Virus record (IMG/VR): IMGVR_UViG_3300033233_000086
Coordinates: 1 to 40,536 of that record
DNA: 40,536 nucleotides
Origin: a virus
Strand: one strand, 5' to 3'
This document shows, piece by piece, positions 7,716 to 35,188 of this stretch. Both the position numbers and the translations under genes were made by a program. The stretch's first letter is position 1; each line of letters starts with the position of its first letter. The notes under the pieces are model-generated. The model made no database searches, was not told the DNA's origin, and worked only from the letters and a program-made list of their open reading frames with translations.

Positions 7716-7862
7716 ATTTGTTCAATTATTTATTTATCTGGTCAAGAATAAGATTTTAGGTCGGTTTATCGGTCGGGTTGGTTCGGGTTTGTTTAGTTGT
7801 CAAAGTTAATTTATCAGGTAAAGAATATTTATTTATAAGTTTATTAATTCTGACATTCTGTC

Positions 7863-7890
7863 TTGACATTTTTAAAAAATATGGTATATT
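7863..7890 (+). promoter_or_regulatory. Early promoter 3
   Basis: TTGACA (7863-7868), 16 bp with TTTTTAAAAAATATGG, TATATT (7885-7890). The TGG before the -10 is shared with promoters 4 and 5. Confidence 0.8.
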
Positions 7891-7918
7891 AAAAAGAAAA
7901 AGGTTAGGGGGTTGAGCG

Positions 7919-8128
7919 ATGTTAGAGAGGGTTCATGAGTTATTAAAAGGGTCATTTTGGATGTTAGATTTATCAAGGGTCAAGTTGTCGAGGTTGGAAT
8001 TGGATTTTTTAAAGGTGTTTTTTGATGTGGCGGTCGATCGGTTGGTTGATGATTTGAATTATCAAGAGCGGTCGTTCATTGTTTTAAAAAAGAAATCCAA
8101 GTTCATTAGTAATCCTTACATTAATTAA
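7919..8128 (+). CDS. Small early protein, 69 aa
   Basis: The family is not recognised. It is helical with alternating hydrophobic and charged residues (KLSRLELDFLKVFFDVAVDR near residues 22-41) and a basic C-terminus (VLKKKSKF). AGGGGGTTG lies upstream of the start at 7919, which is 28 bases after promoter 3. It probably shares a transcript with the 50-residue gene at 8197, ended by the terminator at 8357. No membrane segment is evident. Role unknown. Confidence 0.6.
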   Translation: MLERVHELLKGSFWMLDLSRVKLSRLELDFLKVFFDVAVDRLVDDLNYQERSFIVLKKKSKFISNPYIN

Positions 8129-8196
8129 GGGGGTGCGATCATTTGTAAAAATTGTATAGAGTATGTAGAATAAATAAACTCTTAAGGAGGTGGGTT

Positions 8197-8349
8197 ATGG
8201 TTAAAATTAAAACTCAAGAGGTTGTAAAGACTAATGAAGAGCTTAAAAATCAAGTTAAAGAAAAGCTTAACAAGACAATTGAGCAAACTAAGAAACAAAC
8301 TTTCTGTGCGATCATTATTGACCCTTTTTCTAAAAAGAAATCTTCCTAA
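8197..8349 (+). CDS. Small Lys-rich early protein, 50 aa
   Basis: A short basic helix (TNEELKNQVKEKLNKTIEQT near residues 12-31) is followed by a hydrophobic CAIIIDPF segment and a KKKSS tail. The start at 8197 has AAGGAGGTG directly upstream; an in-frame ATG at 8152 has no ribosome site and was rejected. It ends just before a terminator. Function unknown. The codons and strong ribosome site match its neighbours, so I take it as real. Confidence 0.6.
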   Translation: MVKIKTQEVVKTNEELKNQVKEKLNKTIEQTKKQTFCAIIIDPFSKKKSS

Positions 8350-8356
8350 ATAATCC

Positions 8357-8384
8357 AAACCTGGGGCGGTCAAGCCCTGGGTTT
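8357..8384 (+). terminator. Terminator after the 8197 gene
   Basis: AAACC-TG-GGGC (8357-8367) pairs with GCCC-TG-GGTTT (8374-8384) around a six-base loop, with a small internal mismatch, and is followed by a T-rich CTTTAT. Confidence 0.7.
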
Positions 8385-8571
8385 CTTTATTGTTTAATTA
8401 TTTTATTGTTTAGTCAAGATTATTATTTATTTACGGGGTCACGGGTCCAGTAGGCATGCTATTCGGTGGTCTGTTTAAAAATTCATATCGGAGCTTGCTT
8501 AATCACTCGGGCATTATATTGAGGGGTTGGTTAATTATTTGATTTGATCACTATGGCACTTGCTAAGGGTA

Positions 8572-8599
8572 TTGACATTTTAAAAATTTATGGTATAAT
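8572..8599 (+). promoter_or_regulatory. Early promoter 4
   Basis: TTGACA (8572-8577), 16 bp TTTTAAAAATTTATGG, TATAAT (8594-8599): a full consensus. No terminator-like hairpin was seen between here and 11557, so it probably drives the whole anti-defence run 8631-11557. Confidence 0.85.
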
Positions 8600-8630
8600 A
8601 AAAAACAAAACTAAAGAGGAGGTGGCAAGT

Positions 8631-8897
8631 ATGGTATTAGTCAAAATTGGTCAAAGGATTGTTAATCTACAGAATGTTAAGTTTATTGAGCTTATGGAGA
8701 ATGATAAAGAGCGAGAAATACGATTTTATTTTGTAGATGGGAGTTATAGCTATGTAAATTTAAAGAAAGATGAAGAGGATAGAGATTTTGAGACGGTATG
8801 GGAATATTTGAGCGGTTTGTGGGTCTTTTCTTCGGAAAATTTTTTTAAAGGATACTACATTAAAGGAAACTATGATATAGAGGAGGTAGAGTTATGA
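8631..8897 (+). CDS. Early protein, 88 aa, beta-rich
   Basis: It starts at 8631 after GAGGAGGTGG; earlier in-frame starts lie inside promoter 4. The sequence reads as short strands (MVLVKIGQRIVNL, then EIRFYFVDGSYSYVNL) followed by a helix and an aromatic C-terminus (FFKGYYIKGNYD). No family is recognised. The stop overlaps the next start by ATGA, so this gene opens a tightly coupled operon that includes the ring nuclease at 10091. An anti-defence role is suggested by company only. Confidence 0.6.
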   Translation: MVLVKIGQRIVNLQNVKFIELMENDKEREIRFYFVDGSYSYVNLKKDEEDRDFETVWEYLSGLWVFSSENFFKGYYIKGNYDIEEVEL

Positions 8898-9025
8898 AAG
8901 AGCTTAAGTATATTACTATATGGAAGGATGGTCGTTTGGTGTTTATGAAGCGTGAGGATTTTTTTAAGCGTCGGGGTATTATTTGGCGGATTATTCGAAG
9001 ACTAAAGCGGTTGATTAGGAGGTAA
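8894..9025 (+). CDS. Very basic micro-protein, 43 aa
   Basis: A 43-residue gene starts within the ATGA overlap at 8894 and uses the AGGAGG inside the end of the previous gene. The C-terminal half is strongly basic (RRGIIWRIIRRLKRLIRR near residues 26-43), an amphipathic cationic helix. Coupled translation and a conserved operon position argue that it is real. A membrane- or nucleic-acid-binding peptide is a guess. Confidence 0.55.
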   Translation: MKELKYITIWKDGRLVFMKREDFFKRRGIIWRIIRRLKRLIRR

Positions 9026-9038
9026 AGGAGGTGTAGTT

Positions 9039-9512
9039 ATGAAAAAATTGAAGGTAATATGGAGCATCATTGATGCGTCGAACAGGTATCATCCGTTTCT
9101 TATTATTGAGTTTGCGTATGAAGAGGATTACGAGCAATTCTTACAGTTGAGATTAGATATAGAAAAGGCTGTTTTTTTAGCTAAGCGTTTGCAAGGGGAA
9201 AAGATTGTTCTTTCTACAGAGCAAGGAAAATATGAGTTGGAGTTTCCACAATACTTTAGTGAGAAAAAAGGGGTAGCCCTATTTTGGTTTAGCAATGCAT
9301 TTGAGACTTATGAGGAAGCTTTTAAAAGAATGACAAGAGAAATAGCGAGGGGGCTTTATTACAAAAAGGAGCAAGAAAAAAATTTATGGAAAGACTTAGA
9401 AGAAGCAAACCGAGAAATTTTCGATAAGTGGCAAGTGGCACAAGAAAAAGCACAGCAGATTTTAGACAGTTTACCTATCATAAGAGTGTATGGGGTGAAG
9501 CCATGTCAGTAA
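9039..9512 (+). CDS. Early operon protein, 157 aa, unknown
   Basis: A beta-rich N-terminal half (KKLKVIWSIIDASNRYHPFL, then LIIEFAYEEDYEQFLQL) leads to a long charged helix near residues 95-145 with Glu/Lys/Gln repeats. No known motif is visible. AAAGGAGGTG precedes the start. It overlaps the next gene by ten bases, and the operon runs on to the AcrIII-1 gene. Function unknown. Confidence 0.6.
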   Translation: MKKLKVIWSIIDASNRYHPFLIIEFAYEEDYEQFLQLRLDIEKAVFLAKRLQGEKIVLSTEQGKYELEFPQYFSEKKGVALFWFSNAFETYEEAFKRMTREIARGLYYKKEQEKNLWKDLEEANREIFDKWQVAQEKAQQILDSLPIIRVYGVKPCQ

Positions 9513-9724
9513 GTTTTAGGTTATTTCCTGAGGCTTGCATTGAAAAGATTGTAGAGCGAGCGATTGAGGAGGGCAAGCTATTTGAGTTATTGTTTACCGA
9601 AGAGGGAAGGCGATTATGGGAATGGCGAGGAGAAGATAAAGTAAGAGATTTGGTATTGAAGAAGTTAAAAATTAAAAGGAGGGTAAGCTATGAAAGTAAT
9701 AGAAGCGGTGGAGCAGATGATTAG
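9503..9724 (+). CDS. Small early operon protein, 73 aa
   Basis: The start at 9503 follows GGGTGAAG and overlaps the previous gene by ten bases; longer in-frame starts lie deeper in that gene and were rejected. Residues 10-60 look helical and acidic, with a basic KKLKIKRR tail near 56-63. The end overlaps the next gene by 35 bases. No family is recognised. The heavy overlaps argue for coupled expression. Confidence 0.5.
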   Translation: MSVSFRLFPEACIEKIVERAIEEGKLFELLFTEEGRRLWEWRGEDKVRDLVLKKLKIKRRVSYESNRSGGADD

Positions 9725-10073
9725 AAAAACAAAGAATGCGGTCAAGGAAGAAGAAAGGAAACAAAACCTTATTGAAAAGTTTAAGGAAATATTTGGATTT
9801 AAACCTGATTTGTTGATATGGACTGATAATTTTACATTGAAAGCGAGTTATAGGGTAAGTGATAAATTAAATGATGGTGAGGAAATAGGACCTACTATTG
9901 AAGGGAAACAAGTCATTGAAGTGGCGTTTAGGTTAGTGGAAGAAGAAAATGATGTAGGGTATGATATGGATTGGAAGTTTTCGAAGTCAAAAGGTTTAGC
10001 TGTCAATTGTTACAGTTGGATGCGAAGATATGGACAGTATACAGCGTTGGTTGAAGTAATAACAAAAAATTAA
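9690..10073 (+). CDS. Early operon protein, 127 aa, unknown
   Basis: A basic and acidic N-terminal helix (residues 1-40) is followed by beta-rich sequence (DLLIWTDNFTLKASYRV near 41-57, VIEVAFRLVEEENDV near 76-90). The start has AAAAGGAGGG upstream. It lies immediately before the ring nuclease gene, with 17 bases between. No family assignment. Like its neighbours it is a candidate anti-defence gene on position alone. Confidence 0.6.
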   Translation: MKVIEAVEQMIRKTKNAVKEEERKQNLIEKFKEIFGFKPDLLIWTDNFTLKASYRVSDKLNDGEEIGPTIEGKQVIEVAFRLVEEENDVGYDMDWKFSKSKGLAVNCYSWMRRYGQYTALVEVITKN

Positions 10074-10090
10074 GCGAGGAGGTGTGGACT

Positions 10091-10423
10091 ATGTTTTATG
10101 TGTTAAATTCTCTTATTGTGCCTGTTGATTTTAATGAGAAGGATCGTTATATGGTGTTTTTAAAGAAAATTGATTTAATGAATGCTAAGGAAATTTTATC
10201 CGAAGTTAATTTTACATCGGCGGTGGGTCATGAAGCAACAGCTACGGTTCTTAGTGAACTAATTGGTATAAATATTCCTTACAATCGAATTGCAGTCAAA
10301 CTTAAATCAGGGGATATATGTATACATTTTGCATTGAAGACACGGTTGCCAGAAGGGAAGGTATTGACTGAGGAAGAACTACGACAACTAAATTATGAAT
10401 TTGTGCTAAGTATGATTTGTTAA
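10091..10423 (+). CDS. acrIII-1: AcrIII-1 viral ring nuclease (DUF1874), anti-type-III CRISPR
   Basis: This is a DUF1874/STIV-B116-like protein of 110 residues, the family's usual length. The family cleaves the second messenger cyclic tetra-adenylate (cA4), so that CRISPR ancillary nucleases such as Csx1 are not activated. Visible signatures are NSLIVP near residues 6-11, SAVGHEATATVLSELIGI at 43-60 with the catalytic His at 47, and KTRLPEGKVLTEEEL at 83-97 with Arg85 and Glu88, the numbering I recall for SIRV1 gp29. The start at 10091 follows GAGGAGGTG; an in-frame GTG at 10082 lies inside that site. It sits in a run of small early genes, as expected for an immediate anti-defence protein. 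Confidence 0.92.
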   Translation: MFYVLNSLIVPVDFNEKDRYMVFLKKIDLMNAKEILSEVNFTSAVGHEATATVLSELIGINIPYNRIAVKLKSGDICIHFALKTRLPEGKVLTEEELRQLNYEFVLSMIC

Positions 10424-10447
10424 TAAAAAACCAAGGAGGTGAGAAAG

Positions 10448-10792
10448 ATGAGGAAGAAGTTAGAGAGATTGAAAAAGTTAATTAAGTATAATGATTTTAT
10501 ATCTGTATTGAAAGAGTGGAAGCAGGAATTTGAGAAGCTTTGTCGTTCCTTAGACAGTGAGACGGAGATAGATCATATTTATAGAGCGTGTCAAGTCCTC
10601 GAAGGTGGGTATGGTCAGATATTAGCACAGGAGTGTTTTTATTGTGATGGAAGAGACAAGAGCAAGGTTGAGAAGTGTGCTTTATTGATGTTGATAAGTC
10701 ATGCAGTTATGTCTGAGATTTTAATAAGAGGTAGAAAGAAAGAAGAGATTTTGGAAGAAATAGACAAGTTTATAGAAGAAGTGAAAATATAA
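10448..10792 (+). CDS. Unknown early protein, 114 aa (paralogue of the 12401 gene)
   Basis: This all-helical protein is clearly related to the product of 12401-12751: both share a KxxIKYxDF-like start (here KKLIKYNDFISVLKEWKQEF, residues 10-29), a CR/CQ-x-LE segment and an RKKEEILEEIDKFIEE-type end. No known family is recognised. AAGGAGGTG precedes the start at 10448. It lies 24 bases after the ring nuclease gene, and its partner follows a ribbon-helix-helix regulator, so the pair marks two related early units. It may bind a defence or regulatory complex; this is inference. Confidence 0.65.
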   Translation: MRKKLERLKKLIKYNDFISVLKEWKQEFEKLCRSLDSETEIDHIYRACQVLEGGYGQILAQECFYCDGRDKSKVEKCALLMLISHAVMSEILIRGRKKEEILEEIDKFIEEVKI

Positions 10793-10810
10793 AATTCAAG
10801 GAGGTGAGCT

Positions 10811-11557
10811 ATGCAGATTGACAAGTATTATGTGAAGATTAGTTATTTAACTCCAGTTTTAGCGTTGAACCCAGCTTCAGATTTAGCACAGCAATATATT
10901 ATAAAGAAAGCAGAAAAGGAGCTTGAGAAACTTGAAAAGAGATTAAAGAAAACAAAAAATGAAGAAGAGAAGCAATTGTTAGAGAAAGAAATTGAAAGAA
11001 TTAAGGCTGACCTTGAGGCTAAAGAGGAGCTACGGATAAGTGAAGAGGAGCAAAAAAGTAGATTACAAGTCTTCGCACGCACCCCTGATGGATTTTTAGC
11101 TGATTATCACTACCAAATTAAAGGTTTTATGAAAGAGGTGGCATTGCATTATTTGCAAGGACCATTGAAGAACCAAATTTCCAGATATGTAGATATTTGT
11201 CCTGTTGAAGAAACGGGGGATTATAAACGGGACTTTCTGATACCTTATTTGAGAGATGGACAATTGATTAAAGAGCCTGATAATTTGTTATCGAGGTCAT
11301 TGAGAAGTTGGACTTATGGTCAGTATATTGTGACAATAGTTTGGTCTGAGATGTTGGATTTACCTTTAGAACAGGAATTTGTCGTAAAAGTGTATGGAGG
11401 TAAACTTACGGATAAGCAGATTTTAGATATTTTTACGAAGGGAGAGAATTGGGGTAAGAGTTCTTGGCGTGGAGCAAAGTATGGTCGATTTAAAGTTGTT
11501 GAGTTTGAGAGGTTAAGTGATGTGAAGAAAAAGGTTATATCGGTAAAAAAGAAGTAA
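10811..11557 (+). CDS. Early protein with coiled-coil insert and SWRGxxYGRF motif, 248 aa
   Basis: Residues 1-25 are beta-like, 30-77 form a highly charged coiled coil, and the rest is mixed, ending with ENWGKSSWRGAKYGRFKVV near 213-231. A Gly-rich WR..GRF ending of this type occurs in a family of phage early proteins of unknown role, and it also recalls the Gly-rich loops of RAMP/Cas7-like folds. That likeness is weak and unproven. AAGGAGGTG precedes the start. It is the last gene of the operon holding AcrIII-1. Single-strand nucleic-acid binding would fit, as inference only. Confidence 0.55.
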   Translation: MQIDKYYVKISYLTPVLALNPASDLAQQYIIKKAEKELEKLEKRLKKTKNEEEKQLLEKEIERIKADLEAKEELRISEEEQKSRLQVFARTPDGFLADYHYQIKGFMKEVALHYLQGPLKNQISRYVDICPVEETGDYKRDFLIPYLRDGQLIKEPDNLLSRSLRSWTYGQYIVTIVWSEMLDLPLEQEFVVKVYGGKLTDKQILDIFTKGENWGKSSWRGAKYGRFKVVEFERLSDVKKKVISVKKK

Positions 11558-12012
11558 GCTGAAGGGGTATCGATTTGATAGAACACGAAAAGATTAGAAT
11601 GTGGAGAAGAAAGGAGGTGATGCGAAAAAGGAAACGCTTCGAGAGGCACTGAATAGAAAAAGTTGCGAGAGGAGAGGACCAGAAGTGGAAAGGACTGGAG
11701 GTAATGTGATCAGAAAAGGACTAAAAGAGGAGGAGTGTTGAAAGGAAAGAAGATGGATAAAATAGGGAATGGAGGTGATGTGATTAGAAAAGGACAAAAA
11801 GAAATGGAGATGTTAGGATAGGGAAGGAGACGAGTTGGAATTGAGAGAAGCTGAGTTGATTAGAATTTGATTTGAGATGATTGGAAGGGACTGGAAAAGG
11901 AGAGGAGGAGCGGAGAAGCAAAGCGAATGGACAGGAATAGAAAAAGAACTGACTTAAAATGAGGCGATTGGAGTAGGAAAAGAAATGACTACACACGATA
12001 AGAAGCGGAGTA
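11558..12012. repeat. Purine-rich intergenic tract with three ribosome-site-led micro-ORFs
   Basis: About 450 bases are almost all G and A on the plus strand. A unit beginning GGAGGTGATG or GGAGGTAATG recurs at 11613, 11697 and 11771; the last two match closely over about 30 bases. Each unit has a ribosome site followed by ATG or GTG and a 10-13 codon reading frame (MRKRKRFERH, VIRKGLKEEEC, VIRKGQKEMEMLG). The opposite strand is open only as Ser/Phe-rich simple sequence and is not a gene. The role is unknown; a regulatory RNA or DNA structure is possible. Confidence 0.55.
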
Positions 12013-12040
12013 TTGACTTTTTTAAAAATTATGGTATAAT
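12013..12040 (+). promoter_or_regulatory. Early promoter 5
   Basis: TTGACT (12013-12018), 16 bp TTTTTAAAAATTATGG, TATAAT (12035-12040). It drives the ribbon-helix-helix gene and probably the whole replication operon to 20603. Confidence 0.85.
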
Positions 12041-12069
12041 AAAATAAATTCTTAAAGGAGGTGATTATT

Positions 12070-12399
12070 ATGTTGAAAGACAGAAGGAATTTTGTTTTTA
12101 GATTAAGTGAAGCACTTCAGCAACAGATAAGTCGGTATCTTACTCGAACAAATAAGTCGATAGCTGATTTGATTGATGAGGCAATGGATAAAGCGTTTGA
12201 GAAATATTCAAAGTATTTGACTAATGAAACTGGGGTTAATGCATTATGGCAACGGAAAGCTAAAGTTTTACGGCTTGGTTCATCTGTGGATAAAGAAATG
12301 TATACTCGAATGCTTAAGATTAGTGAACTAACGGGTCGGTCTGTTGCTGATTTGATTAAGGAAGCGATTTGGGAAATAATAAATGAGGGGGAGGGCTAA
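12070..12399 (+). CDS. Tandem ribbon-helix-helix DNA-binding protein, 109 aa
   Basis: Two copies of an Arc/CopG-type ribbon-helix-helix fold lie in one chain: FVFRLSEALQQQISRYL with SIADLIDEAMDKAF (about 8-44), and KVLRLGSSVDKEMYTRML with SVADLIKEAIWEII (about 64-104). RHH proteins normally dimerise so that paired N-terminal strands enter the DNA major groove; here one chain may supply both halves. The start at 12070 is after AAAGGAGGTG. It is the first gene after promoter 5 and is the best candidate regulator of the repeated early promoters, possibly through their shared TTTTAAAAA spacer; the target is inferred. Confidence 0.8.
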   Translation: MLKDRRNFVFRLSEALQQQISRYLTRTNKSIADLIDEAMDKAFEKYSKYLTNETGVNALWQRKAKVLRLGSSVDKEMYTRMLKISELTGRSVADLIKEAIWEIINEGEG

Positions 12400-12400
12400 A

Positions 12401-12751
12401 ATGTTAAAAGAACAATTAATGCAGTTGAAAAATGCCTTGAAATATTATGATTTTGAAGTTTTAGTTAAAGAATGGAAAGAAAGTTTTGAAAATTTTTACA
12501 AACAATTTTATTCAGATTGTTCAACTGAGTATGAATGTATTTGGAAAGTATGTCGTTTGTTAGAAAGTATTAAAGCAGAAAGTTTAGCGAAAGCAGTTTT
12601 ATTTCTTGATGATAATCAGGTTTCAAAGTCTTACAAGGAAGTAAATGCATTTTATATTTTGTTAAGTCAGTTATTTATTGATAGCAGAAAGACTAAAGAA
12701 GAGTTTTTTAGAGAAATAGATAACTTTATAAAGGAGGAAAACAATGACTGA
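12401..12751 (+). CDS. Unknown early protein, 116 aa (paralogue of the 10448 gene)
   Basis: It is helical and related along its whole length to the product of 10448: NALKYYDFEVLVKEWKESFE near residues 9-28, then IWKVCRLLES, a D-x-x-x-SK segment and an RKTKEEFFREIDNFIKEE end. The family is unknown. The start at 12401 has GGGAGGG upstream and is two bases after the previous stop; it overlaps the next gene by eight bases. It stands between a DNA-binding regulator and a possible annealing protein. The duplication shows that the phage benefits from two versions. Confidence 0.65.
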   Translation: MLKEQLMQLKNALKYYDFEVLVKEWKESFENFYKQFYSDCSTEYECIWKVCRLLESIKAESLAKAVLFLDDNQVSKSYKEVNAFYILLSQLFIDSRKTKEEFFREIDNFIKEENND

Positions 12752-14786: not shown

Positions 14787-15950
14787 ATGCTATTACCGCA
14801 TCAGCAGAAGGCGATAGAAAAGTTTGAAGGGTATTCTTATTTAGCTTGGGAAACGGGAACTGGTAAGACTTTAACGGCGTTAAAGATAGCTGAGAATTTT
14901 CGGAATGTGCTTATTATGTGTCCAGCTTCGGTCAAACAGGTATGGTATCAAGAGATTGAAAAATGGGGTATAAGATTGAATAATTTTGAGATTGTAAGCT
15001 ATGATTGGTTTAGGATACATTATAAGAAAGTGTTGAATAAAGCGTTTTGGAATTTGATTATTTTTGATGAAGCACATAAGCTAAAGAGTATTCGAGCCCA
15101 GATTACGAAGCTTGTTATGAAAGTGTTCACAAAGACATATAAAGTTATGCTAAGCGGGACACCATTTGAGAAACCTGAAGATTATTACAGTCAATTAAGA
15201 ATTTTACGACCAGATCATCCATTTAATCAGTTATCATTTACTCAATATAAGAATTCATTTTTTAGGATTGATGGGATGTTTTATTACATTATTGATTTTC
15301 TACCTGGAATAAAGGACAAATTTATTGAGCGATATGTCTTGCGATATGTTGATTTTGTTAAGCGTGCAGATATTGTAGAATTGCCCAGTTTGATAGAAGA
15401 TGATAAATATTTTTCATCTGAGCGATATTTGATTGAACAAAAGAATAAACAAATTGATGGAGATAATATTTTACAAGCATTTATGTATGAGTATAGAAAG
15501 AATGCTTTGCTAAAGGATAAAATTGATTATGTGATTGATTTTATAACTGATAACCTACAGACTGTAGTGTTTAGTTATTTTATTGAGCCATTGCAACATA
15601 TAGTAAAGAAGCTTGGTAGGAAGAATGTTTATTTTTTAACAGGACAAGACAAGAAGGATTTAGAGTATGCATTGAAGGAAGGGGAGAAACCTATCTTAGC
15701 AACTTATTGTATATCGGAAGGGATTAATTTAACAAAGTATAAGAATATTATTTTTCTTTGTCTTCCTTTAGCATGGAGGACTTATGAGCAGGCATTGAGT
15801 AGGGTTTGGCGGTATGGGCAAGAAGATAAAGTTTATTTACAGAGATTGATAGATAAAAAAGGGATTGACCCTAAAGTTTGGCGGATACTTAAGAGAAAGG
15901 GTGATGTGCTTGAAGAGTTAAAACGGCGGGGGAGTTTGAGCGATGAATGA
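14787..15950 (+). CDS. SNF2-type SF2 helicase, 387 aa
   Basis: The superfamily 2 motifs are in order: Q-like LLPHQQKAI at 2-10, Walker A ETGTGKT at 22-28, DEAH at 94-97, motif III LSGTPFE near 119-125, and motif VI EQALSRVWRYGQEDK near 337-351, typical of SNF2 proteins (R-x-x-R-x-GQ). It is short for the family, with only the two motor lobes. The ribosome site is weak, so translation is probably coupled to the upstream gene; the stop overlaps the primase start by eight bases. It is probably a DNA translocase for replication or recombination. Confidence 0.85.
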   Translation: MLLPHQQKAIEKFEGYSYLAWETGTGKTLTALKIAENFRNVLIMCPASVKQVWYQEIEKWGIRLNNFEIVSYDWFRIHYKKVLNKAFWNLIIFDEAHKLKSIRAQITKLVMKVFTKTYKVMLSGTPFEKPEDYYSQLRILRPDHPFNQLSFTQYKNSFFRIDGMFYYIIDFLPGIKDKFIERYVLRYVDFVKRADIVELPSLIEDDKYFSSERYLIEQKNKQIDGDNILQAFMYEYRKNALLKDKIDYVIDFITDNLQTVVFSYFIEPLQHIVKKLGRKNVYFLTGQDKKDLEYALKEGEKPILATYCISEGINLTKYKNIIFLCLPLAWRTYEQALSRVWRYGQEDKVYLQRLIDKKGIDPKVWRILKRKGDVLEELKRRGSLSDE

Positions 15951-18825
15951 TAAAATTCAAGAAATTACAGATGCATTATTAAGTCAAACAGTAGAATTTT
16001 TTCGAGATACAATTTTTGCGAATGAGAACATTTTATTAGCTAAAATATTTGACCAATACCAGAGATATCAAACAGAGTTTGCAAATGTTTATTTATTTGT
16101 TGAAACAGCAAGCGGTGAGAAAAAAGTTTTCCAAGGTCCTAAGCCGAGTTTATACAATCACTATTTGAATTATTTGTTATCTTTCTTTACCAAACGCAAA
16201 CTTAAACCACGGAACATTAAGCTTAGAATATCAACAGGTTTTTACACAGATTATCCAAGTAGGTCAACACTTGAAGATACTTTCTTTCTAATGGTCATAG
16301 ATATTGATGATATACTTGAACAAGATTGCAATCAAATTATTGAAATATTAAACAAGCGCAATTATACACCAACTTATGTCATAAAAACCACAAAAGGCTA
16401 TCATTTCCTTTGGCTTAGCAAGAAGTATTTGATTAAGGAAGACAATGTTTTATTCTCAACTTTTAATATGTTTTTGTCTACATTTTTTAATCAGATTAAA
16501 CAATTGATAGAGGAAGAGTTACCTCATGTGTATTTAGATAAATTGATACCTTTGGAAGGATTTTATACCAGAGCCGATGGTTTGGTTGTATATGAAGGTT
16601 TATGGTATGAAAGTTTTTGGGATTTGTATTCTAAAGTCATTGCAATAGACGAGAAATCCTCAGATGAAGAACTGACCAATATTCTACATAACAAAGTAGA
16701 TTTTGAAAATGATTATTCAACGAGTTTATACTATGCTTTATATGATGTTAAATCAGTCAAGAAATATACTGAAACATTTTGTTCTGTATTGAATACCATC
16801 TTGAATTCTTGGGATACACATAGCTTTACAGAATGGAAAATTGCCATATGGTATTATTATTTGCTTTATCAATATTTTGCTAAAAATGAAGAGGAGCGAG
16901 GGAAAGTTTTACAGGAGCTTTTAGATAATGCAAGTCTATATAAGAAGGAGCCACCGAACAAGGCAAGGGAGAAGACAAAGAAATTTTTTGATTGGTTTGT
17001 TAGCAGGAATTTTCCGTTAGTATTTTGGTCGTGTCGTAGGTTTAATCGGGAGTTTGGTTGTCCGCAGACTTGTCCGAATTTCAATAAGGCAACTCTTCCG
17101 ATACTTCCTGCGTTCCATTTGCCTGATGGTTTTGAAGTAGTAGATAAGATGTATTTTTGCCGTATTCCTATCAAGAAGAATGAACAAACAGATGGCTTAG
17201 AGTTAAAGTATGTCTGTAGATTTTTTTATCCCGTGTGGTTTGCAATTAATAAAATTGAAGGCGAAAATGTTAGCAAAGCTAAAATAATAGTAGCAGGGTC
17301 AAACCAAATAGATGAGTTTATTGTTCAAATGAGCTTTGAAAAAGGATTTAAAGAAGCCGAGATGCTATCAGTTTCAGATAAAAAAAGATACAAAGATATT
17401 CTTACTTTCTTCTACAGAGAAATTCCTACGATTATTGAGCCTGATATGTTAGGATTTAAGTATTATTCCGAACCTCGTCCCATTATACGATTGAAGAATT
17501 TTATTACTGCTTCTGTAGAAAATCATCCGTTCTCAAATTTTTATACCGAGACAAACGGTAGTTATCAAGTATTTAAGCAAATAATTAATCACATTTTATA
17601 CAAGTTACCCGACGAATATTTTATTTTTAAGCTTGCCTGCTGGATAGCGATATTTTCAATTTTTTATTTGCGTCGGTATGATTGTTTTAGTATGAACCCG
17701 ATTTTTGTTTTGATTGGTTCTACTGGTTGCGGTAAGACATCTGTTTTGCGATTGTATAATCTGTTTTTTAGGAAACCAGACCATTTTTTCACCTTACATG
17801 CTGATGATATATCAGTTGCTTATATGAATAGAAGATTGCCTTATTTTAGGACACCTTTTGTAGGCGATGATTTTATTGTTAACGATGATAGAGATATCAA
17901 ATATATGAGGCAATTAGTTCATGATTTAGCAAATAGAAGGATTAGTAAAGCAAATATTTATTTTTCTCGAGCTACAGAAATGATTATGCCTGCAATGTTT
18001 ACAATGGAGACAAAGTATTATGTGCCCTTCATTACAATTGAAGGAATGTGGCGAAGATTAATTACATTTAATGTTGGCTATCGAGACCCATCTTATATTG
18101 ATAAAATAGAGAAATTTTACAGAGAATATATCATTCATTTAGCTGACAATTGGGGCTGGGGGTTAGAACTTTACCAAGAAATTTTTCAACAATATGAAGA
18201 CGAACTTGCCAAATTAATTCAGCAAGGAACATACAAAGAAGTTGATTATGCTGTCTACGATTATGACCCCTTACTTAAAACTTTATTTTCGCTTGAATTT
18301 ATACTACATAAACTTTACGATAAGGAAAAAGCTGATTTTTATTTCAAACAAATTTTGCATATTTTAGTAGCACCGAAGTTTAAGGAGTATATGTTAATTG
18401 AGCCGTGTATTTTTGACAAAGAAGTAGAGTTCATTACATTTAACGATATGCTTTCCACGATTAAGTATCAAGGCGATAAAAACATAGACAGAGTAATCAT
18501 GTTAGAACATACGACACTTTATAATGGAGAGTTGCATTTATTTTACAATTTTTTGACTAAAGTTTATAGAAAGGATTGGGTATCGCAACCGAACTTAAAT
18601 CCATTCTGGCTTGTTATTGTGAAAGGTAATCCTATAAAATTTATTTTACAAGACCCATACCATAAAGACACAATTAACAATTTTATTACTCAATTTCCGA
18701 AGGAATTTCAGAAGTTCCTACAGTATCTACAATTAAGTGGATATGACTTTAGAGACATCATTAAACAAGAATTTGGAGAGATACATGCACAAGAATTAGA
18801 TGAAATAGCAGACAAATGGCAATAG
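15943..18825 (+). CDS. Primase-helicase (AEP primase plus P-loop helicase), 960 aa
   Basis: The N-terminal part has the archaeo-eukaryotic primase pattern: VIDIDD with Asp120 and Asp122, and KTTKGYHFLW with His154. A possible metal site follows, Cys364, Cys373 and Cys377 (CRRFNREFGCPQTC). The C-terminal ATPase has Walker A GSTGCGKT at 592-599 and an acidic VGDDFIV near 645 as Walker B. The order is that of phage and plasmid replicative primase-helicases, which make primers and unwind the fork. It sits between a helicase and a DNA polymerase, so the phage probably carries most of its own replisome. Confidence 0.82.
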   Translation: MNDKIQEITDALLSQTVEFFRDTIFANENILLAKIFDQYQRYQTEFANVYLFVETASGEKKVFQGPKPSLYNHYLNYLLSFFTKRKLKPRNIKLRISTGFYTDYPSRSTLEDTFFLMVIDIDDILEQDCNQIIEILNKRNYTPTYVIKTTKGYHFLWLSKKYLIKEDNVLFSTFNMFLSTFFNQIKQLIEEELPHVYLDKLIPLEGFYTRADGLVVYEGLWYESFWDLYSKVIAIDEKSSDEELTNILHNKVDFENDYSTSLYYALYDVKSVKKYTETFCSVLNTILNSWDTHSFTEWKIAIWYYYLLYQYFAKNEEERGKVLQELLDNASLYKKEPPNKAREKTKKFFDWFVSRNFPLVFWSCRRFNREFGCPQTCPNFNKATLPILPAFHLPDGFEVVDKMYFCRIPIKKNEQTDGLELKYVCRFFYPVWFAINKIEGENVSKAKIIVAGSNQIDEFIVQMSFEKGFKEAEMLSVSDKKRYKDILTFFYREIPTIIEPDMLGFKYYSEPRPIIRLKNFITASVENHPFSNFYTETNGSYQVFKQIINHILYKLPDEYFIFKLACWIAIFSIFYLRRYDCFSMNPIFVLIGSTGCGKTSVLRLYNLFFRKPDHFFTLHADDISVAYMNRRLPYFRTPFVGDDFIVNDDRDIKYMRQLVHDLANRRISKANIYFSRATEMIMPAMFTMETKYYVPFITIEGMWRRLITFNVGYRDPSYIDKIEKFYREYIIHLADNWGWGLELYQEIFQQYEDELAKLIQQGTYKEVDYAVYDYDPLLKTLFSLEFILHKLYDKEKADFYFKQILHILVAPKFKEYMLIEPCIFDKEVEFITFNDMLSTIKYQGDKNIDRVIMLEHTTLYNGELHLFYNFLTKVYRKDWVSQPNLNPFWLVIVKGNPIKFILQDPYHKDTINNFITQFPKEFQKFLQYLQLSGYDFRDIIKQEFGEIHAQELDEIADKWQ

Positions 18826-18835
18826 GAGGATAGCC

Positions 18836-19030
18836 ATGACTTTACAAGAATTAGCACAATTTTTAGCATCAAAGAAGCAATGTAAGGATTGTAAGTTTGC
18901 TCAGAGAAGAAAAAGTTTTGATTGGCGATGCACATTAGAAGATGCACGAACCGAAATACATCCTTTACTTCCTGCTTGTGAACATTTTCAACCAAAGGAG
19001 AAGACAGATGAGAAAGGTTGCTGTTCTTGA
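18836..19030 (+). CDS. Cys-rich zinc-binding micro-protein, 64 aa
   Basis: A CKDC pair near residues 16-19, Cys at about 32 and 48, and a CC near the C-terminus suggest one bound zinc in a small knuckle. It is otherwise basic and not recognised. ATAGGAGG precedes the start, and it overlaps the polymerase start by 23 bases. Its place between primase and polymerase suggests a replication accessory role, for example clamp or ssDNA binding; there is no direct evidence. Confidence 0.6.
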   Translation: MTLQELAQFLASKKQCKDCKFAQRRKSFDWRCTLEDARTEIHPLLPACEHFQPKEKTDEKGCCS

Positions 19031-20603
19031 TACGGAGACCCAGGGTTTATATGGTAGATTATTACTTGGTGGTGTAAAGGTAGATGGTAAGTTTTTTTAT
19101 TTTGAAGATGCGGATAAGCTTAAAGATTTTTTAAATGATTTGATAAGCAATGGATATGTGATAGTAGGGCATAATTTATTTTATGATTTTTCAATACTTG
19201 ATTTTATCCCACCGAATAGAGATTGTTTTGATGATACATATTTATTCATGAAGGCATATCAAGTTGAGTATAAGATAGAGAAGCCTGAAAGAGGAGTATT
19301 TGGTTTAGAGAATTTGTGTAAGTTTTTTAAGTTATATGAATACAAAACCGATAAGACAAAAATTCGTAAAGACCTTGAAAAAGGCGTTAGATTATTAGAC
19401 AACCGATTGAAAGATTATTTGACTGAAGATTTGAATGCTACAGATTTACTTTACCGACACACAATTGCTAAGCATGAGAAATTTAAGCCCGTATATCTTT
19501 TAGATAAAGCTTTCATGATTAGACTTTTACAGATACAAAAACGAGGTGTTCCAGTTAATGTTGAAGAAATATCTAAATTGCTACAAGAAAAGAAACCTGT
19601 CTTTAATCAAAATCTAATGGCTTTCCAGAGGGCTTATCAATTCAATCCATTTTCACCTGCACAAACTAAAACAAAACTTAACTTACCTGATGCCCAAAAG
19701 CAGACCTTACTCTATTATTTCTTAACTACTAAAGATGAAAAATTGAAACAATGTATACATGATATTCTATCCCTCAAAAAGCAACAAGATGAGATTTCTT
19801 ACTTAGAAGAATGGATAACCAAAGGGTCATCTGGACGACTATATGGTCATTATGATATTTGTGGAGCCATCACGGGTAGACTTTCTTGTTCCAATTCTAA
19901 TTTACTTAATATTCCACGGCATCTGCGGTATCTCTTCTATAAAAGCCCATTCCTTAAATATGATTTTTCCCAAATAGAATTAAGATTAGCTGGACAAGTT
20001 TATTACATATCAACCTTTATTACAGCCTATAGAAATGGAGAAGACCTACATAGCAAGACAGCATCTTTTCTCTTTGATAAACCAATTGACCAAATATCCA
20101 AACAAGAACGACATATTGCTAAACAATTCAACTTCGCTTTAATTTACGGAGCCTCGGTTCAAACATTACAAGAACTTTTATACGAAGCAAATATCCTTTT
20201 GACCTATGAAGAAACCAAATTCCTAAGAGCTAAATGGATGTCCTATCATCGAAGAGTTTCCGAACATATCCAATCAACGATGAATACTCTTAAAAATGGT
20301 CCCATCTCTGTAAGCACAGTCCTACGAAGAAACCGTTATACAGAACATCTGAACATAGCATTAAACTTCCCAATCCAAGGCACAGGAGCCGAACTGCTTA
20401 AGGGAACTGTAGTCTTGTTTACAAAAAAATACCCTGACGCTAAGATAGTTAATCTTATACATGATGAAATACAAATAGAATGCGATAGCCAAGAAGAAGC
20501 AAATGATTATATCAAAGCTTTAGACGAGGCAGGGGCTGAAATGTGGAACTATTTATTTAAGAACCCTGAGATACCGTTTCAGGGCGAGGCGACTGTTTTC
20601 TAA
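19008..20603 (+). CDS. Family A DNA polymerase with 3'-5' exonuclease, 531 aa
   Basis: The proofreading domain shows Asp8 and Glu10 (VLDTETQG) and GHNLFYDF with Asp60. Polymerase motif A is DFSQIELR at 319-326, motif B RHIAKQFNFALIYG at 368-381 and motif C HDE at 485-487. There is no 5' nuclease domain, as in T7-like polymerases, but the protein is shorter than T7's, so the exonuclease or thumb is compact. I chose the start at 19008 (AAAGGAG upstream) over an ATG at 18942. It is the last gene of the operon and its tail overlaps the convergent virion gene by 47 bases. Confidence 0.93.
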   Translation: MRKVAVLDTETQGLYGRLLLGGVKVDGKFFYFEDADKLKDFLNDLISNGYVIVGHNLFYDFSILDFIPPNRDCFDDTYLFMKAYQVEYKIEKPERGVFGLENLCKFFKLYEYKTDKTKIRKDLEKGVRLLDNRLKDYLTEDLNATDLLYRHTIAKHEKFKPVYLLDKAFMIRLLQIQKRGVPVNVEEISKLLQEKKPVFNQNLMAFQRAYQFNPFSPAQTKTKLNLPDAQKQTLLYYFLTTKDEKLKQCIHDILSLKKQQDEISYLEEWITKGSSGRLYGHYDICGAITGRLSCSNSNLLNIPRHLRYLFYKSPFLKYDFSQIELRLAGQVYYISTFITAYRNGEDLHSKTASFLFDKPIDQISKQERHIAKQFNFALIYGASVQTLQELLYEANILLTYEETKFLRAKWMSYHRRVSEHIQSTMNTLKNGPISVSTVLRRNRYTEHLNIALNFPIQGTGAELLKGTVVLFTKKYPDAKIVNLIHDEIQIECDSQEEANDYIKALDEAGAEMWNYLFKNPEIPFQGEATVF

Positions 20604-34128: not shown

Positions 34129-34512
34129 TTACTTAACCACCCAAATTAATATGCCTAACAAAACACCAATCCCTAAATATTTACCCTTCTCAATTAATCC
34201 CACTTTTGATTTCTTTTCGCATTCTTTCAACGCTGTATCATACAACTGTCTCTGATTTTTATAAAGCTCTATTTGTTCTTTCAATAACTGATTTTGCTCC
34301 TTCAAGATTTCATTCTGCTTCTTCAAATTTTCAATCAATCCTTCATATTCTTGAACCTCTTGCTCTAATACTCGCTTTTGCTTCAATTCTACTATTACCT
34401 GCTTAGCTTGCTCTTCAGGTATACAGATATCAACCGCGTACGCTTGGCTTGCTAAAAATAAACATACTAATAAACTACTTAATAACCGCTTCATAATGCA
34501 ATAGTTTACCAT
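34129..34512 (-). CDS. Exported coiled-coil membrane protein, possible spanin part, 127 aa
   Basis: The signal sequence is KRLLSSLLVCLFLASQAYA, with cleavage near residue 26, followed by a long Gln/Leu coiled coil (about 40-100) and a C-terminal hydrophobic segment LGIGVLLGILIWVVK. I chose 34512 since a GGAG site lies seven bases upstream. With the membrane-anchored coiled-coil protein at 35185 it would make a two-component periplasmic bridge, but ordinary outer-membrane spanins carry a lipobox, which is not seen here, so the pairing is tentative. Confidence 0.5.
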   Translation of the reverse strand: MVNYCIMKRLLSSLLVCLFLASQAYAVDICIPEEQAKQVIVELKQKRVLEQEVQEYEGLIENLKKQNEILKEQNQLLKEQIELYKNQRQLYDTALKECEKKSKVGLIEKGKYLGIGVLLGILIWVVK

Positions 34513-35188
34513 TGCGTTTCTCCAATTCAAATTGTTTTTCTATTTCAAAAATACTTAAATCGGGCTTAAACTTTCTCCAAGTTTTGCTCTCCATTTCTTT
34601 TATTTTCTCCCAAAGCTCAGGATAATATGTATAAATAGCTCTCAATTTATCAATCCCCACAAGTGGACAACAATAACATGAAGTCCGTGAAATTTTGCTA
34701 TATATCCCACCAAAATCAAAACCTTTTGAATAACAATACTCAAGTGCTTGCTTTTCTGTTATCTCCCATTCTACAAGAGGATATCTATAATGTTTTTTAG
34801 GCTTTGCTCTCTTCTTTTCATCATAAGCAATTCCAACATAAATAGTATAATCATCTTGTAATGAATTTAAAAATTGTGCCATTAAATCTCTTTTCTTAGA
34901 TGTGCACCACCGCGATTGAATTGACGGAAAACTGTAACCTCTCTTATCAATATTTTTACCTCTACTTTTCTGATGCTCAAAGAAATAATAATCATAATCA
35001 AATTTTAGCCGTGTAATTTTTAAAGGTGCAATGTATCTTTCAAGCTTTTCCAAATGCTCATATATCTCAGGAAACTCTTTAGTCGTATCTACAAAAACAA
35101 CATAATCTATTGGCATACCTCTTTCTAACATCATAAGCAACATTGCCGTGCTGTCTTTCCCGCCTGATAAACTTACTACATGCTTCAT
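34475..35188 (-). CDS. PAPS-reductase-like ATP pyrophosphatase, 237 aa
   Basis: The P-loop SLSGGKDSTAML at residues 6-17 is the PP-motif of adenylyl-transfer enzymes in the PAPS reductase family, with Lys11 and Asp12; SRWCTSKKRD near 91-100 and a Cys cluster SCYCCPLVG near 170-178 complete the family pattern. Phage members may act on sulfur or modify nucleic acids, as DndC does, but the reaction here is unknown. It overlaps its neighbours by ATGA and by 38 bases. It is unusual to find it between spanin-like genes in a lysis cluster. Confidence 0.8.
   Translation of the reverse strand: MKHVVSLSGGKDSTAMLLMMLERGMPIDYVVFVDTTKEFPEIYEHLEKLERYIAPLKITRLKFDYDYYFFEHQKSRGKNIDKRGYSFPSIQSRWCTSKKRDLMAQFLNSLQDDYTIYVGIAYDEKKRAKPKKHYRYPLVEWEITEKQALEYCYSKGFDFGGIYSKISRTSCYCCPLVGIDKLRAIYTYYPELWEKIKEMESKTWRKFKPDLSIFEIEKQFELEKRNGKLLHYEAVIK

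Follow-up and report, generated by a model that had tools for sequence, protein, structure and literature searches.

The 40,536-base virus record analyzed here over its whole length (hereafter, the window) carries a gene, acrIII-1 (10091 to 10423, + strand), whose 110-amino-acid product is a member of the DUF1874 (PF08960) family and a predicted ring nuclease. Quite probably, this gene encodes a functional AcrIII-1-type enzyme that blunts the cA4 signaling of type III CRISPR. How would it do so? By analogy with characterized family members, the protein would be made early in infection and, as a homodimer, would bind and cleave cyclic tetra-adenylate (cA4), which Cas10 of the type III CRISPR complex produces as a second messenger. 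The dimer would close around cA4, His47 would cut it to linear di-adenylates, and cA4-activated host effectors, such as CalpL or Csx1/Csm6, would stay off or be switched off. The enzymatic part of this claim is stronger than the immune-evasion part because a 2025 exchange, described below, disputes the anti-CRISPR action of natively expressed AcrIII-1. Either way, the enzyme family, known mostly from work on archaeal viruses, gains a clear bacterial-phage member.

The acrIII-1 gene, its family, and its active site

The acrIII-1 reading frame opens with an ATG, a few bases 5' of which sits a Shine-Dalgarno stretch (gaggaggtg, 10076 to 10086, + strand, as read from the sequence; GAGGAGGTG), making for a good ribosome-binding site. 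A mechanical list of open reading frames gives an alternative start, the GTG at 10082, for a product of 113 amino acids; the homologues agree with the ATG at 10091. The original prediction took the product for a 110-residue DUF1874 member, and a profile search bears this out. The protein matches Pfam PF08960 (STIV_B116-like, that is, DUF1874/AcrIII-1) with an E value of 1.2e-26 and 93.2 bits, the curated cutoff being 26 bits, and the match covers nearly the whole profile (residues 3 to 103 of the protein on positions 2 to 100 of 101). PHROG 5063 matches as well (4.9e-34). Judged from sequence, the family match and the conserved residues described below lie far beyond chance.

Could the gene be a cellular-type Crn2/Csx16 CRISPR accessory gene, carried as part of a defense locus rather than for counterdefense? 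The PADLOC model “Csx16” does match the protein (E value of 4.4e-18, 64 bits), but a Pfam scan returns PF08960 as the single family, and the gene is surrounded by small phage genes along with genes for replication and structure, leaving this origin exceedingly improbable. Scans of the window's larger open reading frames recognized neither cas10 nor a type III effector gene. acrIII-1 sits in a phage operon, outside a CRISPR locus, and the Csx16 label was set aside.

Between relatives carrying the gene, acrIII-1 has a dN/dS ratio of 0.06 to 0.17. It is thus under purifying selection and, therefore, maintained as a working protein. In a tree of the family, the window groups with its close phage relatives, while the deeper branches are poorly resolved. 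An alignment of 19 sequences, drawn from the window, from viral contigs, and from a single bacterial genome, with members down to 38% identical to the window protein, has the following residues invariant in all 19: S43, A44, V45, G46, H47, A51, R66, R85, E88, and G89. Among these are His47, Arg85, and Glu88 (codons 10229 to 10231, 10343 to 10345, and 10352 to 10354), at exactly the positions that had been called from the sequence. The placement of the catalytic His at residue 47 also stands. In a profile alignment, counted from its printed coordinates, it lines up with the histidine in the SAIGH motif of Marinitoga Csx1-Crn2, H495, and the H495A mutant of that protein no longer cleaves cA4 (PMC7293037). 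The Crn2 part of the Marinitoga protein is the same domain, though it is fused to Csx1 and lies in a cellular type III locus.

A role in DNA or RNA binding was the first guess from early structures of the DUF1874 family, and several archaeal virus homologues are labeled “DNA binding protein.” That the window protein is a regulator of this kind is nonetheless very unlikely, as the conserved S43-A-V-G-H47, R66, R85, and E88 are residues of the cA4 site, in register with a proven enzyme. For the ring nuclease, alignment and predicted fold together would place His47 at the cA4 site.

That fold comes from an AlphaFold2 model built on the 19-row alignment, with a pLDDT of 91.3. Ranked by sequence similarity, the solved structures begin with AFV3-109 (2j6b, E value of 9e-26), followed by STIV B116, SIRV1 ORF114a, SIRV1 gp29 (6scf, E value of 4.5e-7), and Marinitoga Csx1-Crn2. 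Foldseek, queried with the model, ranks solved family members first. In VIA-align, six solved family entries give Z scores of 14 to 17 over 99 to 109 residues: 16.6 for 2j6b (rmsd of 2.6, 107 residues), 16.2 for 2j85, 15.9 for the Crn2 entry 8y7f, 14.6 for 8y7g, 14.5 for 2x4i, and 14.0 for 6scf (rmsd of 2.7, 107 residues). The last of these is the overlay on SIRV1 gp29 that had been proposed as a check, and 6scf is the enzyme whose cA4 cleavage was demonstrated. A seventh entry, 8y6z, also Crn2, has a Z score of 10.9, and the first entry from outside the family reaches only 2.9. The archaeal-virus proteins SIRV1 gp29, AFV3-109, and STIV B116 thus have the Pfam family, the fold, and the catalytic His in common with the window protein. 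AFV3-109 is about 45% identical to it, SIRV1 gp29 just about 18 to 26%, and their hosts are archaea, whereas the gene described here is in a bacterial phage.

An optional gene in a phage operon

Where in the genome does acrIII-1 lie? It is sixth among the small genes that run from 8631 to 11557 behind a consensus sigma-70 promoter (8572 to 8599, + strand; TTGACA-16-TATAAT with an extended -10, 12/12), the likely start of what is probably an early operon. All of these genes are on the + strand. The first (8631 to 8897), for a small protein with a homologue in Hydrogenobaculum phage 1 (HP1; described below), starts at Met30 of the listed open reading frame 8544 to 8897. It is followed by genes for a 43-amino-acid basic protein (8894 to 9025), conserved in relatives and in HP1; a rarely conserved protein of 157 amino acids (9039 to 9512); a 73-amino-acid protein (9503 to 9724), again conserved in relatives and HP1; and a 127-amino-acid protein, p127 (9690 to 10073), directly 5' of acrIII-1. 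On the 3' side lie the gene for a 117-amino-acid protein (10439 to 10792), in a slot that other small genes occupy in relatives, and p248 (10811 to 11557). Gene content beside acrIII-1 differs among the relatives, as it does in accessory early regions.

The proposal that all of 8631 to 11557 is an antidefense region fared less well. Only acrIII-1 convincingly matches a defense or antidefense family; scans of the run's other open reading frames, to the extent that each was covered by Pfam, PHROGs, NCBIfam, or PADLOC, returned no convincing family, and an antidefense role for the whole run is only a guess. Farther along, a gene with its own promoter (12013 to 12040; TTGACT-16-TATAAT) encodes two ribbon-helix-helix (RHH) stretches in one Arc-like chain (12061 to 12399). 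The 117-amino-acid protein and a 122-amino-acid protein (12383 to 12751) are paralogues, 34% identical, that flank the p248 and RHH genes.

A near-complete sister phage of 38.8 kb (IMGVR_UViG_3300033233_000091, locus L055) is 96% identical to the window in PolA, 98% in TerL, and 91% in p248, and a PF08960 match is found nowhere in its 38.8-kb genome. At 7853 to 8483 of this locus, the order is p127, a 73-amino-acid gene, and p248, with acrIII-1 cleanly absent and the flanking p127 and p248 genes intact. The metagenome that yielded this phage, 3300033233, is also the source of two acr-bearing relatives (L003 and L004). In yet another relative (L037), a 163-amino-acid protein occupies the acrIII-1 slot. 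Because the gene is missing from a sister phage with the same flanks, and because the content of the slot varies, acrIII-1 is an optional accessory cassette among sister phages. Its optional presence agrees with counterdefense, short of proving it.

DUF1874 genes were also encountered farther afield. A 104-kb viral contig, IMGVR_UViG_3300013099_000018 (L033 and L034), has two of them with the same match and in opposite orientations, an arrangement that could reflect an inverted duplication or an artifact of assembly. In a single scan of genome contigs, matches were limited to Fervidicola and a proteobacterial MAG. The Fervidicola ferrireducens gene (8001 to 8318 of L042; 47% identical) lies beside plasmid- or phage-like genes (ParB-like), and a csm3 gene is present in the same genome.

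The phage group and host immunity

The bacterial tailed-phage setting of the original prediction is evident across the 40.5-kb genome, which encodes a Terminase_3 large subunit, an SU10-like portal, and a family-A DNA polymerase (PolA), along with an SNF2-type helicase, a Cas4/PD-(D/E)XK nuclease, and a 960-amino-acid protein with a weak AAA match. The record begins and ends with the same 106 bases and is thus terminally redundant, its GC content is 33.8%, and a tRNA search of the window found none. The window is a tailed phage from hot springs, related to HP1, and its hosts are probably Aquificae bacteria. “Pyrovirus” genomes of Aquificae are 37 to 41 kb long with 34 to 37% GC and two divergent gene blocks, and they carry PolA, a helicase, and a Cas4-RecB-like nuclease (PMC7689252); measured against this published description, the window would appear to belong to the same genus. 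One difference is that the 960-amino-acid protein, a possible primase/helicase (15943 to 18825), and PolA (18942 to 20603) are separate genes in the window, whereas a single PolA polyprotein is described for both Thermocrinis Octopus Spring virus (TOSV) and TGBSV. Elsewhere, a PAPS-reductase-like protein (34475 to 35188, - strand), whose best PADLOC match is SspD (E value of 3.8e-25), may act in the chemistry of phosphorothioate DNA or in sulfur metabolism.

Among annotated proteins, the closest relative of the window protein is the DUF1874 protein ALG96929 of HP1 (KP282676), 65.5% identical over all 110 residues. HP1, like the window, has the 43-amino-acid gene, a small gene, and a p248 homologue as neighbors and is a bacterial phage of Aquificae, having been assigned to Hydrogenobaculum through CRISPR spacers (PMC7689252). 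It differs in its 19-kb genome record, in which the DUF1874 gene is labeled just hypothetical. The Aquificae “Pyrovirus” TOSV encodes an AcrIII-1-like protein of, by description, the same family; this ORF 3 product, 119 amino acids long where the window's has 110, was reported in 2020 to resemble the anti-CRISPR that Athukoralage 2020 described for a Sulfolobus virus (PMC7689252). acrIII-1 is solidly placed as a new example in a phage group where an AcrIII-1-like gene had already been reported. TGBSV encodes AcrIII-2, a viral SAVED protein that is likewise a cA4 ring nuclease in an Aquificae Pyrovirus (PMC12751052) but is 230 amino acids long and of an unrelated fold.

Does the host have a type III system that uses cA4, as the presence of acrIII-1 was taken to predict? 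By analogy, such a host is a reasonable expectation, consistent with published work on Aquificae, since cA4 signaling in this phylum, the Pyrovirus AcrIII-2, and TOSV ORF 3 have all been described. CalpL is a cA4 effector of type III CRISPR in Sulfurihydrogenibium and Thermocrinis, both Aquificae (PMC12751052), and T. jamiesonii has a type III-A spacer that matches a Pyrovirus (PMC12751052, PMC7689252).

Whether the enzyme would benefit the phage in its natural host is the disputed matter. A 2025 Nature Matters Arising (Martinez-Alvarez 2025), as it is cited in two later papers (PMC12751052, PMC13131331), holds that natively expressed AcrIII-1 has no anti-CRISPR action. Extended to the window, this would mean a protein that is a cA4 ring nuclease in vitro and, at native expression, fails to overcome type III immunity, serving instead to lower background cOA or in some other role, such as keeping accidental activation, dormancy, or damage in check within infected cells. 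That acrIII-1 is optional among sister phages, some of which share a metagenome, also fits such a role. Against it, a phage of the same kind has acquired a second, unrelated cA4 ring nuclease, AcrIII-2 (PMC12751052), and one survey found the family in 36 phage versus 7 prokaryotic genomes, so that phages carry it more often than cellular type III loci do (PMC12409355). On balance, this account is unlikely, and an AcrIII-1 that would blunt type III immunity in the natural host, as characterized family members suggest, is preferred. The window and its sister phage form a natural pair, one with the gene and the other lacking it at that site. Their hosts apparently belong to a phylum with biochemically known cA4 type III systems, and the disputed in vivo role of AcrIII-1 is therefore testable outside Sulfolobus.

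The neighbor p248 and the periodic spacer

Along with the sister pair, the parts of this locus most worth following are p248 and the periodic spacer behind it. p248 (10811 to 11557, + strand) is a conserved 248-amino-acid protein with a coiled-coil insert and a weak fold resemblance to Cas7/RAMP proteins, which are type III subunits. With a dN/dS ratio of 0.01 to 0.07, it is more conserved than acrIII-1, and it is about 40 to 44% identical in HP1-like phages. Where a relative has both genes, p248 is nearly always on the 3' side of acrIII-1, an association biased by the search, as many of the loci were found via acrIII-1. Each gene also occurs apart from the other: p248 without acrIII-1 in L016/L037 and L055, and acrIII-1 without p248 in L015. 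Among 299 genomes of Fervidicola's phylum, the search for p248 homologues gave one weak partial match and no more.

How far can the RAMP resemblance be taken? The AlphaFold2 model of p248 is mediocre (pLDDT of 66.7). In Foldseek, 14 of the 15 top rows are chains of type III RAMP complexes (the exception is at rank 14), with a best E value of 0.021 and none significant. VIA Z scores reach 8.8, yet unrelated coiled-coil proteins reach 8. In hhalign, p248 scored a probability below 1% against the Csm3, Cmr1, and Cmr6 profiles, where true RAMP pairs run as controls gave 80 to 96%. The modeled RAMP fold may thus be regarded as a lead rather than a finding. One speculation, distinctly a long shot, is that the operon counters type III CRISPR in two ways: AcrIII-1 destroys cA4, while p248, as a solitary Cas7/RAMP-like protein, hinders the effector complex or forms a ribonucleoprotein (RNP) with the purine-rich, 5.2-nt-periodic transcript described next. 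If true, the AcrIII-1 and p248 operon would represent a novel type of module, directed against CRISPR or built as a phage RNP.

In the window and its p248-bearing relatives, some 400 to 700 nt separate p248 from the next recognizable gene. These stretches are without convincing open reading frames and are rich in G and A, with about 4 to 9% C. In the window, the noncoding spacer runs from 11558 to 12010 (+ strand), ending before the RHH-gene promoter. It matches no Rfam family. It shows neither a 3-nt coding period nor RNA structure (z of +0.72) and is neither coding nor a structured RNA.

What the spacer does have is a strong periodicity of G at 5.2 nt, which was found nowhere else in the window. 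Periodic stretches follow p248 in relatives (9128 to 9753 in L003; 2608 to 3104 in L013; 6538 to 7102, - strand, in L055; 3899 to 4610 in L026; and others bearing p248), and L015, which is without p248, has none. The pooled Fourier peak falls at 5.2 nt, often with the 2.6 harmonic; most relatives have this periodicity, L023 and L024 being exceptions. Pooled G autocorrelation peaks at lags of 5, 10, 15/16, 21, 26, 31, 36, 41/42, 46/47, 52, and 57. The repeat element is approximately GANNN, at spacings of 5 and sometimes 6. A simulated random mix of 5- and 6-nt spacings lost coherence somewhat faster than the observed spacer, which is suggestive only. The signal is strongest in the window at 11601 to 12000, with a power of 17.9 against a median of 2.9, and in the sister phage without acrIII-1 the spacer reaches a power of 23.4 at 5.18.
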